From assembly GCF_000018885.1 (NCBI RefSeq), contig NC_010168.1:806001-870000 (forward strand): a stretch of DNA of 64,000 nucleotides, in the 5' to 3' direction. Below the pieces are notes generated by a model. That model was not told where the DNA came from, ran no database searches, and saw only the letters and a program-made list of their open reading frames with translations. Shown piece after piece: positions 2,621-55,428 of the stretch (positions are counted from its first letter, which is position 1; each line of letters opens with the position of its first letter). Source of the DNA: Renibacterium salmoninarum ATCC 33209 (lineage in GTDB: Bacteria; Actinomycetota; Actinomycetes; Actinomycetales; Micrococcaceae). The position numbers and the translations under genes were made by a program.

Positions 2621-3778
2621 GTGCCCGTACGAATGGTTTCCGTAGAGTCTGATATTCAGACAAAGTTTTCGAAGTTTCAACGGAAAGGCCGCGCTGTGAC
2701 CCTCGCACCGACCGCACCACGTGTAAGTCCTGCCACCAACCGGCAGACGGCGGAGTTTATTGAGCTCGCCGAAAAAGTTCGGGCAACCGGGCTGATGGAA
2801 CGTGATGTTGCCTGGTACATATGGCGGATGATTCGACTTGGCCTAGGATTTGCTGCCGTCGGTGTGATGTTTGTGCTGTTGGGACAGTCGTGGTGGCAGT
2901 TGTTGACCGCAGTCGCCTTCAGCGTGATGTGCGGAATGGCAGGCTTCTTGGCGCACGACGCAGCGCATCGACAGATTTTTTCCAGCTCGAAGGCTAACGA
3001 GTGGACCGGGCGCGTAGTCGGTAATCTATTTGTGGGTCTGAGCTACGGCTGGTGGATGAACAAACACGGTAAGCACCACGCCAACCCAAACAAAATTGGT
3101 TCTGACCTGGATATTTCTGCCGGCGTTGTGGTCTTTGATCCTGAGTCAGCCGCACAACGAACTGGCTTTGCTCGCTGGTTTGCCGCACATCAGGGTTGGT
3201 TTTTCTTTCCGTTGTTGACTTTAGTCACCTTGGATTTGCACATTAACGCGACCAAACGAGTCTTGAACCGCCAGGAGATCGTACCGAAGCGGGGCTGGGA
3301 AGCAGCTATGCTCGCCGTCCGATTGATCGGCGTTCCGGTAGCAGTGTTTGCCGTCTGCGGCTGGGGTATTGGTGCGGTAGTTTTGGCCGTGCACATTGCC
3401 ACTTTCGGACTCTACTTTGGCGGAGTATTTGCGCCAAACCACAAAGGTATGCCTTTGGTTCCGAAGGACCTGAAGATTGATTTCCTCCGCCGCCAGGTCT
3501 TGATGAGCCGTAATATCTCAGGCGGTTGGTTGGTTTCGGTAGGTATGGGTGGCTTGAACTACCAGATCGAGCATCACTTGTTCCCCACCATGTCGTCGAG
3601 GAATCTTGCAAAAGTTCAGCCGATGGTTCGTGAGTTCTGCGCGGGAAAGCAGATTACCTACACGGAGACCACCTTGGTTGATTCATACGGGATTGTGGTT
3701 CGTTATCTCAACCGGGTAGGCCTGGGGCAGCGCGATCCCTTTGATTGCCCGCTAACGGCGCAGTTCCGCACCCGCTAG
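2621..3778 (+). CDS. Membrane fatty acid desaturase (acyl-CoA/acyl-lipid type)
   Basis: Introduces a double bond into acyl chains at the membrane using a di-iron centre. The three histidine boxes are present: HDAAH (about residues 112-116), HGKHHANP (about 149-155) and QIEHHLFP (about 315-322). Hydrophobic pairs lie between them (about 71-110 and 190-270). Length 385 is normal for the family (DesA3 and front-end-like relatives in actinobacteria). The start is unclear: GTG at 2621 is only 2 nt from the AGGGGG site, and ATG at 2633 is 14 nt away. The QIEHH form of the third box (no cytochrome b5 domain) suggests a stand-alone enzyme fed by a separate ferredoxin or reductase. Confidence 0.9.
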   Translation: MPVRMVSVESDIQTKFSKFQRKGRAVTLAPTAPRVSPATNRQTAEFIELAEKVRATGLMERDVAWYIWRMIRLGLGFAAVGVMFVLLGQSWWQLLTAVAFSVMCGMAGFLAHDAAHRQIFSSSKANEWTGRVVGNLFVGLSYGWWMNKHGKHHANPNKIGSDLDISAGVVVFDPESAAQRTGFARWFAAHQGWFFFPLLTLVTLDLHINATKRVLNRQEIVPKRGWEAAMLAVRLIGVPVAVFAVCGWGIGAVVLAVHIATFGLYFGGVFAPNHKGMPLVPKDLKIDFLRRQVLMSRNISGGWLVSVGMGGLNYQIEHHLFPTMSSRNLAKVQPMVREFCAGKQITYTETTLVDSYGIVVRYLNRVGLGQRDPFDCPLTAQFRTR

Positions 3779-16210: not shown

Positions 16211-16238
16211 TGCGGCCAAATTCTTGGTTGCCAACGCT

Positions 16239-17309
16239 ATGACCTATCGTTCCGTAGTGCTCTCACGACCCGGTGCTGTCGCGGCCGCTGGCCTAGATTC
16301 CGGCGTAGCCGCGCATTACGGCGATCCGTTCCGCGAACAACGTGCACTCGCTGAAGGCAAAGCTCTTGTCGATCAATCTCAGCGCGGTGTAGTCACCGTG
16401 TCCGGACAGGACAGGCTGACCTGGCTGACCACCTTGTCCTCACAAGATGTGTCGAGGCTCAAAGCCGGAGATTCCGCGGAGTTACTGCTGCTGAGTGTGC
16501 AGGGACGCATTGAGTATGACATTCATGTGCTTGACGACGGCGAAACTGCTTGGTTGCTGGTCGAAGCTGCTGAGGCTTCGCCGCTAGCGGCATGGCTCAA
16601 CTCAATGAAGTTCATGCTTCGAGTGGAGGTTAACGAGGTCTCGGAGGAGTGGGGCGTGCTTGCCTCGACCGCGGCGCTACTTGACGGCCAGCCGGTATGG
16701 CAAGATCCGTGGCCCGGCGTTGTGCCCGGCGGCTTTGCCTACTCGAGTCAAGAGGGTCACCCAGGTGTGGATCGGCCATGGTTCGAGTATTTGGTACCAA
16801 TCGAGAAGCTGACCGAACTGATTGCTGAGCTTCCTCTTGCCGGGAGTTTGGCGGCCGAAGCCCTGAGAATTGCTGCCTGGCGGCCGCGGTGGGGTGCCGA
16901 GACGGATGAGAAAACCATTCCGCACGAGCTTGATCTAATGCGCACTGCGGTGCATCTTTCTAAGGGTTGTTACAAGGGCCAAGAGACTGTGGCTCGAGTG
17001 CACAATCTAGGCCACCCGCCGCGCCGATTGGTCTTTTTGCAGCTCGACGGGTCGCAGCACACATTGCCCGTGGTTGGCTCGGCGATTCAGAACGGCGAAC
17101 GCCAAGTGGGTCTACTGACCTCAGTGGCGCAACATTACGAGATGGGCCCGATTGGCCTGGCAGTTATTAAGCGCAATACCGATGCCAACGCCGAGTTGAC
17201 CGTACTTGACGACGGCGAAGCCTATGTTGCTGCGCAGGAAATTGTGGTGGCAACAGATGCTGGCCAAGTTGTTGGCAGGCAGACTAGTTTTCTCAAACCC
17301 GTTCGCTAA
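16239..17309 (+). CDS. ygfZ: Folate-binding protein YgfZ
   Basis: A GcvT-like fold protein that binds tetrahydrofolate and supports Fe-S cluster enzymes such as MiaB. The diagnostic motif KGCYKGQETVARVHNLG is at about residues 245-261, and RLTWLTTLSSQDVS lies near the N-terminus. ATG at 16239 is preferred; a TTG 15 bp upstream is in frame, and neither has a clear ribosome site. It follows the nitrobindin-like gene closely, as in mycobacteria. Confidence 0.92.
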   Translation: MTYRSVVLSRPGAVAAAGLDSGVAAHYGDPFREQRALAEGKALVDQSQRGVVTVSGQDRLTWLTTLSSQDVSRLKAGDSAELLLLSVQGRIEYDIHVLDDGETAWLLVEAAEASPLAAWLNSMKFMLRVEVNEVSEEWGVLASTAALLDGQPVWQDPWPGVVPGGFAYSSQEGHPGVDRPWFEYLVPIEKLTELIAELPLAGSLAAEALRIAAWRPRWGAETDEKTIPHELDLMRTAVHLSKGCYKGQETVARVHNLGHPPRRLVFLQLDGSQHTLPVVGSAIQNGERQVGLLTSVAQHYEMGPIGLAVIKRNTDANAELTVLDDGEAYVAAQEIVVATDAGQVVGRQTSFLKPVR

Positions 17310-17330
17310 TCTCCAACCAACCTATTTTCC

Positions 17331-17393
17331 AAACGCTGCACCACTTTTGGGCCTTAAAACAGGGTTTTAAGGCCCAAAAGTGGTGCAGCGTTT
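17331..17393. repeat. 30-bp perfect inverted repeat, hairpin family 1 copy A
   Basis: Arms 17331-17360 and 17364-17393 are perfect reverse complements over 30 bp with a 3-nt loop. The outer part AACGCTGCACCACTTTTGG is shared with 18126-18188, while the inner 10 bp differ. It lies between the convergent ygfZ and acetyltransferase genes, 21 and 17 bp from their stops. It could terminate transcription from both sides, though no U-run is evident. Confidence 0.95.
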
Positions 17394-17410
17394 GTAGCTG
17401 GGGCGGAATG

Positions 17411-18103
17411 TTAGGGCTGAAGTAGTACCGAGGTTTGCAATCCGGCGGCGACGAAGCCCAACTTGGTGGCCAATGCCTGTGAGGCTTGGTTTGAAATCGA
17501 GACTCGCCATTGCGGAATGAGTCCGGCGCCGAGGGCCTCCTGGGCTGCAATACCTGCTACGGTCAGGCCGAATCCATTTCTGCGCATATCTGGCCGTACT
17601 AGCAAGCTCAAGTGCGCCAAAAGCCCTTGCCATTCCTGGTACCCGGCGCTAGCAAATGCCTCTTGCTCGGAAACGATCGTGAATTGGTGCGTGGTCTCGG
17701 CAATTCCAGATTCGTTGACGTCGTCCACAGGGCAGAGGGTAGAAAGCAAAGCCTTGTCCGCCGCTGCCAAAGAGACGGTAGTTTCCGTGCTGGGATCGAT
17801 AATCTCCAGGTCGTCCGCAAACATCAGTTCAGCGGCGCCTAGACCGCGAGCGCCGTGATCTGCACCCAAACTCAACAGCGTGGAGTGTTGTACTAATTCT
17901 TCGTCGCTGAGCCCTGCTGCTCGGTCGAGGAACCATTGCGGTCCAAGCAGGGCCTTACAGTCGAATAGTTGGACAAAGGATCCGGTGCCAGAATCGGTCA
18001 CCTTGGTGAGCCTGCCGCCCGGCTGAAATGCGCCGTCGTCGAACCCTAAGAGTCTTTCCCAAGCCAGTTTAACTATTGCGGCCGAGGCAGTTTCGAATGC
18101 CAT
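17411..18103 (-). CDS. GNAT-family N-acetyltransferase
   Basis: The C-terminal half holds a GNAT core: SLLVRPDMRRNGFGLTVAG (about 165-183, the acetyl-CoA loop R-R-N-G-F-G) and SNQASQALATKLGFVAAG (about 203-220). The N-terminal half is a less conserved domain seen in actinobacterial GNAT proteins of about 230 residues. Substrate unknown. Confidence 0.85.
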   Translation of the reverse strand: MAFETASAAIVKLAWERLLGFDDGAFQPGGRLTKVTDSGTGSFVQLFDCKALLGPQWFLDRAAGLSDEELVQHSTLLSLGADHGARGLGAAELMFADDLEIIDPSTETTVSLAAADKALLSTLCPVDDVNESGIAETTHQFTIVSEQEAFASAGYQEWQGLLAHLSLLVRPDMRRNGFGLTVAGIAAQEALGAGLIPQWRVSISNQASQALATKLGFVAAGLQTSVLLQP

Positions 18104-18125
18104 GTTTTCCTTTGACGATGCTCTT

Positions 18126-18188
18126 CAACGCTGCACCACTTTTGGTCGTTATGAGCGTCCCATAACGACCAAAAGTGGTGCAGCGTTG
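18126..18188. repeat. 28-bp perfect inverted repeat, hairpin family 1 copy B
   Basis: Arms 18126-18153 and 18161-18188 match perfectly over 28 bp with a 7-nt loop. The outer arm AACGCTGCACCACTTTTGG equals that of the copy at 17331. The inner arm (TCGTTATG here, GCCTTAAAAC there) differs but is still fully paired. It lies between pfkA and the acetyltransferase gene upstream of it, so the two copies flank the acetyltransferase gene. Confidence 0.95.
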
Positions 18189-18212
18189 AGATGTAGATGT
18201 AGATGTAGATGT
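18189..18212. repeat. Hexanucleotide tandem repeat (AGATGT)x4
   Basis: Four exact AGATGT units directly abut the hairpin arm at 18188 and end 5 bp before the pfkA stop. Such repeats can vary in copy number by slippage. Here it is non-coding and downstream of pfkA. Confidence 0.9.
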
Positions 18213-18217
18213 GGGTG

Positions 18218-19240
18218 CTAGCCGAAAAGAATGGATGCTTCGTCGTAGCGGCTTTGCGGCACAGTTTTGAGATTGCCAAGCGCCGCCTCAAAGCCAACGT
18301 GCTGAATTTCGGTTCCAGTCAAAGACACCATAGTGTCCCAACGTCCCTCAACAACTGAATCGATCGCGGCCATACCCAAACGGGTGGCCAGCACGCGGTC
18401 AAAGGCGCTCGGCACGCCGCCGCGTTGAATGTGCCCCAAAATGGTGGCCCGAGTTTCGATGCCTGTGCGGGCTTCTAGCTCCGGTGCCAGTTGATCGGCA
18501 ATGCCACCTAACCGCGGCCGGCCAAAAGTGTCCAGCCCACGCACTGAATGCGGGGATTCCAAGTGATCCGGTACGAAGCCTTCGGTAACCACCACCAAGG
18601 GTGCTCGGCCACGTTCGTGTGCTTCAGTGACCCAGCCAGAGATCTGCTCGACGCTGACCTTTTGCTCAGGAATCAAGATCGCATGCGCGCCGGAAGCCAT
18701 TCCAGCGTGTAAGGCAATCCAGCCGACGTGCCGGCCCATGACCTCAGCAATCATGCAGCGGTGGTGCGATTCGCCGGTGGTACGCAGCCGGTCAATCGCC
18801 TCGGTGGCAATTTGGACCGCGGTATCGAAGCCGAAGGTGTAGTCGGTTGCGTCAAGGTCGTTATCAACAGTTTTCGGAACGCCAACTATTTTGAGGCCGA
18901 CGTCGGTCAGCCGCTTTGCCGCTGCCAGGGTGCCCTCGCCGCCGATCGCGATGATCGCATAGATACCCAGCCGTTGCATATGAGTTTTGACGGCTTCTGG
19001 GCCGCCGCCGTCGAACGGATTAGTCCTAGAGGTGCCAAGAATGGTGCCGCCTTGTTTCGAAATGCCGCGCACGCTCTGCCGTGGTAGTTCCATGATGTCG
19101 CCTTCGACGACGCCACGCCAGCCATCGCGGAATCCAACGAACTCCTGGCCGTGTACTTTGATGCCTTTGAGCACCGCGCCGCGGATAACGGCGTTCAGCC
19201 CGGGGCAATCGCCACCGCTGGTCAGGATTCCAATCTTCAT
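18218..19240 (-). CDS. pfkA: 6-phosphofructokinase
   Basis: Phosphorylates fructose 6-phosphate, the committing step of glycolysis. Seen: GILTSGGDCPGLNAVIRG at the N-terminus, IGGEGTLAAA (the Gly after GGE marks the ATP-using form rather than the pyrophosphate form) and PKTVDNDLDATDYTFGFDTA. The substrate segment MGRHVGWIAL is also present. Length 340 fits the actinobacterial group with a Lys in PKTVDNDL. No lesions seen. Confidence 0.96.
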   Translation of the reverse strand: MKIGILTSGGDCPGLNAVIRGAVLKGIKVHGQEFVGFRDGWRGVVEGDIMELPRQSVRGISKQGGTILGTSRTNPFDGGGPEAVKTHMQRLGIYAIIAIGGEGTLAAAKRLTDVGLKIVGVPKTVDNDLDATDYTFGFDTAVQIATEAIDRLRTTGESHHRCMIAEVMGRHVGWIALHAGMASGAHAILIPEQKVSVEQISGWVTEAHERGRAPLVVVTEGFVPDHLESPHSVRGLDTFGRPRLGGIADQLAPELEARTGIETRATILGHIQRGGVPSAFDRVLATRLGMAAIDSVVEGRWDTMVSLTGTEIQHVGFEAALGNLKTVPQSRYDEASILFG

Positions 19241-35209: not shown

Positions 35210-35226
35210 CTCAACGCCTGATTCAA

Positions 35227-35265
35227 GAAAAGCCCCGAACTCGCGATGCGAGTTCGGGGCTTTTC
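35227..35265 (+). terminator. Strong terminator after rplL
   Basis: Perfect 18-bp arms starting GAAAAGCCCCGAACTCGC with a 3-nt loop, followed by TTTGT. It begins 18 bp after the rplL stop. In contrast to the nearby hairpin at 35283, it has the A-tract/U-tract form of an intrinsic terminator. Confidence 0.93.
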
Positions 35266-35282
35266 TTTGTGCTGCTCAACCT

Positions 35283-35345
35283 CGTCGAGTGTCGACTTAT
35301 GGCTGGTTTGCGAGGGATTTACCAGCCATAAGTCGACACTCGACG
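35283..35345. repeat. 25-bp perfect inverted repeat, hairpin family 2 copy A
   Basis: Arms 35283-35307 and 35321-35345 are perfect over 25 bp with a 13-nt loop. The outer part CGTCGAGTGTCGACTT is shared with 40954-41016. The second arm ends directly at the stop codon of the GH85 gene (35346). A separate normal terminator for rplL lies just before it, so termination of rplL does not need it. Confidence 0.95.
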
Positions 35346-40953: not shown

Positions 40954-41016
40954 CGTCGAGTGTCGACTTGTGGTTGGTTTTGACGTCGTTTAACCGCCAC
41001 AAGTCGACACTCGACG
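40954..41016. repeat. Long inverted repeat, hairpin family 2 copy B
   Basis: Outer arms 40954-40973 and 40997-41016 pair perfectly over 20 bp (CGTCGAGTGTCGACTTGTGG). The stem continues inward with one bulge. It shares the outer 16 bp with 35283-35345. It begins 7 bp after the DUF4235 stop and ends about 40 bp before the TPP riboswitch. Confidence 0.93.
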
Positions 41017-54503: not shown

Positions 54504-55428
54504 TCCCGTTGAGGGGTCGCAAAATGACGCTATTGTTCCCGCATTGCGTCATTTTGCGACCCCTCAACGGGACCGGCAAGCGGATCGGCGACGGCGCAGG
54601 CGGCCCGCCGAAAAGTTGAGTCGGGGCGTGCGGGTGCTGGCCGCCGTCGTGATTGGCTTTTTGTTTTTGCTTCCGGTGCTCTGGATGCTGCTCACCTCGG
54701 TATCGCTGGACTCGGATGTCTTCCAATTCCCGCCCAAGCTTTGGCCGGCCTGGGATTGGTCGAACTATGCACGAGCTTGGGGCAAGAGTCCCTGGCTACA
54801 GTATTTTGGCAACACGGTTTTCATCGCGGTCTGCGTGATTGTCTTGGTGCTGTTCACCTCGCTGCTTGCCGGGTTCGCCTTTGCGGTGATGCGGTTCAAA
54901 GGCCGTACAGCGTTATTTCTTGTGGTTATGTCGGTGATGATGGTGCCGCAAACCGTGTTGTTGATCCCGAACTTCCTGATCGCGCAAAGCACCGGTCTCT
55001 ACGACACCTACTTGATTCAGATTCTGCCGTGGGGTGCCTCAGTATTTGGTATCTTTCTGCTCCGGCAGTTCTTCAGCACGCTACCCAAAGAACTCTTTGA
55101 AGCTGCAGAGATCGACGGCGCGGGGCCTCTTCGGATGCTGTGTTCAGTAGCTGCTCCGCTGGCTGCGCCGTCGTTAGTCCTCATCGGCTTGAACTCCTTC
55201 ATGGGCACCTGGAATTCCTTCATTTGGCCTTACATCATGACCAAATCAGATTCAGTGCGGCCGATCGAAGTGGGGTTGCAAGCGTTCTATGGCTCGGACG
55301 GCACGGACTGGACTGGGCTCTGTGCTGCAGTTTCCTTTACCTCTTTGCCGATCATTATCTTGTTCTTGTTTTTGCAGAAGTATTTTGTTACCGGTGCATA
55401 TGGCACCCAAGGGAGTGTTCGAGGATGA
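54493..55428 (+). CDS. Sugar ABC transporter permease, MalG type, start region invaded by hairpin
   Basis: The membrane part begins about residue 48 (VRVLAAVVIGFLFLLPVLWM), with the EAA loop LPKELFEAAEIDGAGPLRML. The open frame reaches back to ATG 54493, but residues 5-30 are read from the 54506-54572 palindrome and a basic RRRRRR stretch. The original start was likely between, and has no clear ribosome site now. Overlaps the hydrolase gene by ATGA. Confidence 0.85.
   Translation: MHPNPVEGSQNDAIVPALRHFATPQRDRQADRRRRRRPAEKLSRGVRVLAAVVIGFLFLLPVLWMLLTSVSLDSDVFQFPPKLWPAWDWSNYARAWGKSPWLQYFGNTVFIAVCVIVLVLFTSLLAGFAFAVMRFKGRTALFLVVMSVMMVPQTVLLIPNFLIAQSTGLYDTYLIQILPWGASVFGIFLLRQFFSTLPKELFEAAEIDGAGPLRMLCSVAAPLAAPSLVLIGLNSFMGTWNSFIWPYIMTKSDSVRPIEVGLQAFYGSDGTDWTGLCAAVSFTSLPIIILFLFLQKYFVTGAYGTQGSVRG
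54506..54572. repeat. 26-bp perfect inverted repeat, hairpin family 3
   Basis: Arms 54506-54531 and 54547-54572 are exact reverse complements (start CCCGTTGAGGGGTCGCAAAA) with a 15-nt loop. It begins 2 bp after the stop of the binding-protein gene and is inside an operon, between co-directional genes. A terminator here would cut off the permease, so insertion as a repeat or a role in setting unequal expression are the better explanations. Confidence 0.95.

Follow-up and report, generated by a model that had tools for sequence, protein, structure and literature searches.

Dispersed 63-bp palindromes behind genes in Renibacterium salmoninarum: REPIN-like hairpins with arms apparently kept matched by DNA copying and exchange

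We analysed a 64,000-nt stretch of Renibacterium salmoninarum ATCC 33209 (the window), which spans positions 806001–870000 of the 3,155,250-bp genome (G000). Pfam searches on three window genes identified a GCV_T domain, a GNAT acetyltransferase and a phosphofructokinase, and two hairpins flank the GNAT gene (Table 1). Both are perfect, as a preliminary description of this DNA had stated, with arms one base longer per side than it gave: inverted repeats of 100% identity with 31-nt arms at 17330–17360/17364–17394 and with 29-nt arms at 18125–18153/18161–18189. The predicted RNA folds reach −55.4 kcal/mol for hairpin 1 and −52.7 kcal/mol for hairpin 2. The 18-mer ACGCTGCACCACTTTTGG occurs four times in the window at up to three mismatches, every occurrence being exact and two falling in each hairpin, a count reached in 0 of 100 shuffles; the two hairpins cannot be chance. 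Their inner arms differ, with GGCCTTAAAAC in hairpin 1 versus GTCGTTATG in hairpin 2, and each is perfectly paired, again in agreement with the first account. The phosphofructokinase stop codon lies 30 nt from hairpin 2, and a GATGTA tandem repeat occupies 18190–18215 between the two.

Table 1. Hairpins, genes and terminator in the window, in window coordinates
Feature	Position	Strand	Remarks
Gene with GCV_T folate-binding domain	16224..17309	+	stop codon 22 nt ahead of hairpin 1
F1 hairpin copy 1	17330..17394	no strand	inner arm GGCCTTAAAAC, loop 3 nt; between convergent GCV_T-like and GNAT genes
GNAT-type acetyltransferase gene	17411..18103	-	flanked by both F1 hairpins
F1 hairpin copy 2	18125..18189	no strand	inner arm GTCGTTATG, loop 7 nt; upstream of GNAT gene
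Phosphofructokinase gene	18218..19240	-	3' end toward hairpin 2
Canonical intrinsic terminator, T-rich tail	35225..35267	+	distinct from the F2 hairpin downstream
F2 hairpin	35283..35345	no strand	63 nt; 73 nt past rplL-like gene (label by eye), directly after the canonical terminator
F2 hairpin, inner stem partly decayed	40954..41016	no strand	63 nt
F3 hairpin	54504..54572	no strand	69 nt; like in kind, other arms

The window hairpins belong to a dispersed family, F1, which has a sister family, F2. The F1 outer arm GCTGCACCACTTTTGG matches the genome 41 times in the forward and 40 times in the reverse direction at up to two mismatches, versus 2 and 2 for the reversed control. Genome-wide there are 39 two-armed F1 copies plus two single arms, so the suggestion of a repeated hairpin element was borne out; 33 of the 39 are exactly 63 nt long when framed from one base before AACGCTG to one base after CAGCGTT. 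F2, with the arm CGTCGAGTGTCGA[C/G]TTGTGG, has 27 two-armed copies, two of them in the window and 26 of them 63 nt long, and F3 is represented by two two-armed copies. Arm mismatches per 24 pairs average 0.8 in F1 and 1.7 in F2. Conservation drops inward: the outer columns are near-fixed, the inner columns occur as two or three paired types, and the centre is free, with 32 distinct loops in 33 F1 copies and 26 in 26 F2 copies. In 26 pairs of copies the arms are identical over 48 positions and the central nine bases differ at 2–8. The sequence is neither restricted to the window nor tied to one shared inner arm, so what would have refuted the first account did not come about.

Near-invariant outer columns in F1 and F2, fixed spacing and centres that are nearly all different are the pattern expected of binding sites for a sequence-specific DNA protein, in which the outer arms would be conserved half-sites around a free centre. 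We consider this reading improbable. The copies were collected by outer-arm patterns at up to three mismatches, a search that misses decayed copies and overstates outer-arm conservation, which is thus partly an artefact; many columns covary rather than stay fixed; the outer arms are replaced outright from one lineage to another as well as at single sites; and in two close relatives, G004 and G006, the arms evolve no slower than their flanks (see below).

Copies cluster along the genome, with 10 gaps below 2.2 kb among 66 versus 2.9 expected under uniform placement (P = 0.0002), as might be seen if hairpin pairs marked inserted gene units, the role first proposed for the two copies around the GNAT gene. 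The eight other intervals between close copies, however, have no gene in common, and one holds an IS3-like transposase (labels by eye). Moreover, the GCV_T, GNAT and phosphofructokinase genes stand together without any hairpin in relatives G003, G004 and G005, and the gene is therefore independent of the hairpins. In G001, G002 and G006, we found neither a GNAT match nor a hairpin between the GCV_T and phosphofructokinase genes. With GNAT present and hairpins absent at the same place in three relatives, we rejected the inserted unit, which is hardly credible.

The hairpins sit close behind genes. Scanning from −20 to +80 nt, we found a convincing stop codon near 53 of 68 elements, and 59 of 64 gaps between stop codon and hairpin were at most 30 nt (median 15). 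With genes called by a crude codon-usage script, F1 copies lie between 20 convergent, 16 tandem and 3 divergent gene pairs, and F2 copies between 8 convergent, 9 tandem and 3 divergent pairs, with 7 unclear. On both strands the transcript-side flanks are rich in C and poor in G, the right flank being the mirror image of the left (p = 7e-8 versus 32 control gene ends). This placement, together with the continued occupation of F2 sites across species described below, argues for bidirectional 3'-end signals that would terminate transcription or shield mRNA 3' ends against exonucleases, with the pairing of the arms maintained because the RNA stem is selected for. Like intrinsic terminators, the elements are stable hairpins directly past stop codons, often between convergent genes. 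Unlike them, F2 has no T tract, with a mean of 0.9 T in the 8 bases made up of the last 3 of the element and 5 beyond; in the same type of stretch F1 has a mean of 3.9, which is weak and mostly the arm's own bases. Behind the rplL-like gene of G000, G004, G005 and G006, the hairpin follows a canonical terminator. Nor are G.U pairs favoured over A.C mismatches on the sense strand (8 versus 10), and the arms of G004 and G006 drift at the rate of their flanks. On balance we hold a 3'-end signal to be an unlikely explanation of the matched arms, if one to be taken seriously.

F1, F2 and G005 copies align in 63 columns without gaps (74 sequences), an alignment that comprises 59 of the 66 F1 and F2 copies, the seven that are not 63 nt being left out here and in the per-column counts, and 15 copies fetched from among those of G005. 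In this alignment, 94.4% of cells are paired. Changes on both sides were seen in 22 of 28 pairs versus 19.9 in shuffles, and 48 pair types versus 43.7, both slight excesses. Double-change cells numbered 592, versus 243 in shuffles and 80–171 in slid controls; relatedness alone, with no structure involved, can lift such counts above shuffles, and the slid controls preserve relatedness. Mismatched arms were mosaics of two established alleles, each seen matched in other copies, in 32 of 44 F2 cases versus 16.8 simulated and in 16 of 26 F1 cases versus 9.6, and G005 mosaics showed no excess (6 of 26 versus 5.4). The F1 and F2 mosaics agree equally with exchange and with stepwise compensation. In 3 of 66 copies the palindrome extends into unique flanks, by 20, 14 and 12 bp, and the longest extension makes it reach from stop codon to stop codon of the two neighbouring genes.

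The close pair G004 and G006 allows hairpins to be compared site by site. We aligned 20 shared sites, comprising 17 matched pairs and three more; over 450 bases, flank identity was about 97–99.8% in 16 of the 17 pairs, the exception being one flank of C2:369396 at 87%. The same hairpin occupies 18 of the 20 sites, and a hairpin of a different family stands at the other two within closely matching flanks. The first of these (G004 C1:115721, G006 2072731) also shows differences next to the hairpin, of a few bases to one side and about 35 to the other; the second (G006 2757150) differs as well in the short stretch that separates the stop codon from the hairpin. Across 16 same-family pairs, all of F2-type copies, the centre differs at 9 of 144 positions, and five of these stem from a single pair with a loop inversion, in which the nine central bases of one copy are exactly the reverse complement of those of the other. 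In the same 16 pairs the arms differ at 27 of 860–863 positions, compared with 44 of 1433–1436 in the adjacent flanks, with paired columns registered on the copy without a gap. Arms and flanks change at a like rate, and the arms therefore decay as neighbouring DNA does on the G004/G006 time scale. Mean mismatches per 24 pairs are 3.3 in G004 (14 of 18 listed copies) and 2.9 in G006 (19 of 22), higher than in F1 and F2 of G000. At one further site, G006 has a family hairpin at C1:3279653 where G004 has, within matching flanks, 599 nt with an unnamed ORF (C4:477269–477867).

Among the 27 arm changes, 26 were one-sided, none was two-sided, and one had its partner deleted. The preliminary description had argued that independent drift would leave mismatches, and it was right: none of the 27 was matched in the other arm. 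Any arm correction is therefore slow in this pair and cannot be the only force, and we rejected fast arm-to-arm correction as the sole one. The further proposal that one arm serves as template for the other stands in part, since the exact loop inversion and the three flank extensions are traces of such copying, and falls as a complete account. Together, the loop inversion, the flank extensions, the lack of a G.U excess and the mosaics favour copying and exchange of arms at the DNA level.

Over longer distances, we compared the orthologous 3' ends of 11 G000 genes that have a hairpin in up to five relatives (50 of 55 loci), with gene names assigned by eye and the relatives' hairpins placed in the family by eye from outer CG.CGAG-like ends and size. 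At the F2 sites behind infB, ech and rplL, hairpins of the same size and outer sequence with other arms are present in G004, G005 and G006, and likewise behind folD in G004 and G006; the G004 hairpins at rplL and folD are decayed. Those of G004 and G006 behind infB and ech are absent from the listed covariance-model matches. G004 and G006 also have a hairpin at a fifth F2 site, 747859. At F2 sites in G001 and G003 we found no family hairpin: the ech and rplL ends read had none, and unlike hairpins stand at infB in both and at folD in G001. None of the seven F1 sites among the 11 carries a family hairpin in G004 or G006; some hold unrelated hairpins, and the F1 site topA has an F2-type hairpin in G005.

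The same loci yielded two observations on other palindromes. Behind glpK (named by eye), G003 (L344) and G005 (L364) carry a hairpin of another type, 66–78 nt with GAGTTCG... arms, at the same place in both species and with changed arms. Behind the gene of the 1489081 site, G004 (L332) has a 64-nt palindrome of other sequence that is absent at the closely matching G006 locus (L333); the difference might reflect an insertion, or else a deletion that took place between short ATG repeats.

We then considered the distribution of the family in the genus and beyond. Matches to a covariance model (R1) turned up in each of the 7 same-genus genomes searched; of 52 other genomes, 7 had matches, which are rare there. 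The matches were drawn from at most 90 or 150 scored candidates per genome, and the copy numbers are at least those found. In a count that spanned G000 and 58 relatives, the F1 arm had 43 and 39 matches in G000 and stayed at about control level in the relatives, and the F2 arm is abundant in G005 only among the relatives searched. Arms are lineage-specific, and most copies read keep 63 nt and a common skeleton. F1 is a branch confined to this genome among those searched, mostly at sites without the family in the relatives read. A pattern scan of genome contigs was too permissive, returning at least 118 stretches; among 80 of these loci checked (L174–L253), a second arm was present in two, L227, which is palindromic, and L247 (Blastococcus MAG), where it is weak. 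The L227 palindrome, at 3342–3413 of a Solirubrobacterales MAG, has F2-like arms (CGAGTGTCGACTTG) in a distant actinobacterium. Distant BLAST searches of an F1 copy against phages and of an F2 copy against plasmids gave no match.

No mobilising enzyme was found in searches for DUF222 and for Y1_Tnp, the RAYT domain. Y1_Tnp had no match in six of seven same-genus genomes, and the sole G000 match (C1:113468–113831), split over two frames, is probably a broken IS200-type gene. DUF222/HNH proteins were rejected as partners: we fetched 16 loci out of 27 DUF222 matches, and none of the 16 held a family hairpin. Integron attC sites have GTTRRRY-type end boxes and stand in cassette arrays; they too were rejected, as the ends here read GCGTTT and then mostly G or C, and copies are single or loosely paired. 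One of ten arms typed (from G002) folds clearly better than shuffles, and the arms have no common REP-like fold. For a target-site duplication, close relatives offered no clean filled/empty pair of the 63-nt family, and distant relatives are too diverged.

The preliminary description knew of no named family for the element, and our searches agree: Rfam on window positions 16800–18700 returned 14 microRNA look-alikes, all below the gathering score, and the open-access literature searched gave no description of the family. The accessible portions of PMC3733652 and PMC12306157 do not mention Renibacterium, and a table in the latter has one Arthrobacter genome. The closest likeness is to REPINs of Pseudomonas and others, which, in the part of PMC3116915 available, have conserved ends and a spacer whose length and pairing matter, with compensatory changes. 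Likewise, the present elements are non-coding, extragenic and present in many copies of lineage-specific types, and have conserved inverted ends around a hairpin-forming spacer of kept length and pairing that compensates, the feature by which REPINs are recognised. This shared anatomy would suit classical REPINs moved by a RAYT (Y1 transposase), but the elements here are 63 bp long, their single arms do not form REP hairpins, a RAYT is missing from six of the seven genomes and G000 has one split frame, and whole-hairpin swaps and a loop inversion occur at fixed sites. We therefore regard the classical system as very improbable.

Other known systems share single features. GTAG/CGTC-tagged REPs, as described in the accessible part of PMC3733652, are also palindromic with alternative complementary stem residues, and F2 starts with CGTC by chance; they have stems of 5–13 bp and a tag at one end, whereas the stems here are symmetrical and about 28 bp long and F1 starts with AAAC. 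The repetitive hairpin-forming elements of sponge mitochondria, in the portion of PMC2800124 available, are likewise intergenic with conserved stems and differing loops, but belong to another compartment, have another sequence and are described there with no fixed 63-bp length. Template switching at inverted repeats predicts both homogenisation of arms and inversion of the spacer (PMC8794818 and PMC8604942, in part), and both outcomes are present here as traces. It is a mutation process rather than an element family, however, and leaves the spread to dozens of sites and the family swaps unexplained.

The reading we favour, with a probability of about 0.58, is that of a REPIN-like mobile or recombining 63-bp palindrome behind genes, whose arms are equalised by template switching within a hairpin and by replacement between hairpins. 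What keeps the two arms matching is apparently the copying of DNA and the swapping of whole hairpins rather than small compensating mutations in RNA. Within a hairpin, replication template switching would copy one arm, sometimes with some flank, onto the other, or may instead flip the loop. Between hairpins, whole elements would be exchanged or newly inserted, so that a site would stay occupied though the sequence of its hairpin is renewed, and the copies of a genome would come to have outer arms in common. If the hairpins act at mRNA 3' ends at all, that role would be a secondary one or one gained afterwards.

Pairs with identical arms and differing centres qualify this account. Replacement of whole hairpins would carry the loops along, yet loops differ among arm-identical copies; outer arms would therefore be recognised or selected in active lineages, or centres would change on copying. 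Neutral decay and whole-hairpin copying are insufficient alone to explain such pairs, which hint that outer arms are selected or recognised by sequence. Comparison of close genomes yielded no arm change affecting both sides. A possible though doubtful alternative is hairpin-for-hairpin replacement, in which sites behind genes would be fixed ports at which intact 63-bp palindromes, from whichever family is active at the time, replace decayed ones. Such replacement could proceed through a recombinase or replication-coupled exchange without a RAYT, and would amount to genome-wide concerted evolution with each site staying occupied.

How long palindromes keep their arms matched, by selection on RNA or by copying of DNA, is a long-standing question. 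A genus with dozens of equal-length hairpins, many of them at the same sites across graded distances, makes arm repair, loop flips and swaps countable. That sites are retained despite full turnover of their sequence, mostly without a RAYT gene, suggests an undescribed route by which short repeats spread or are renewed.
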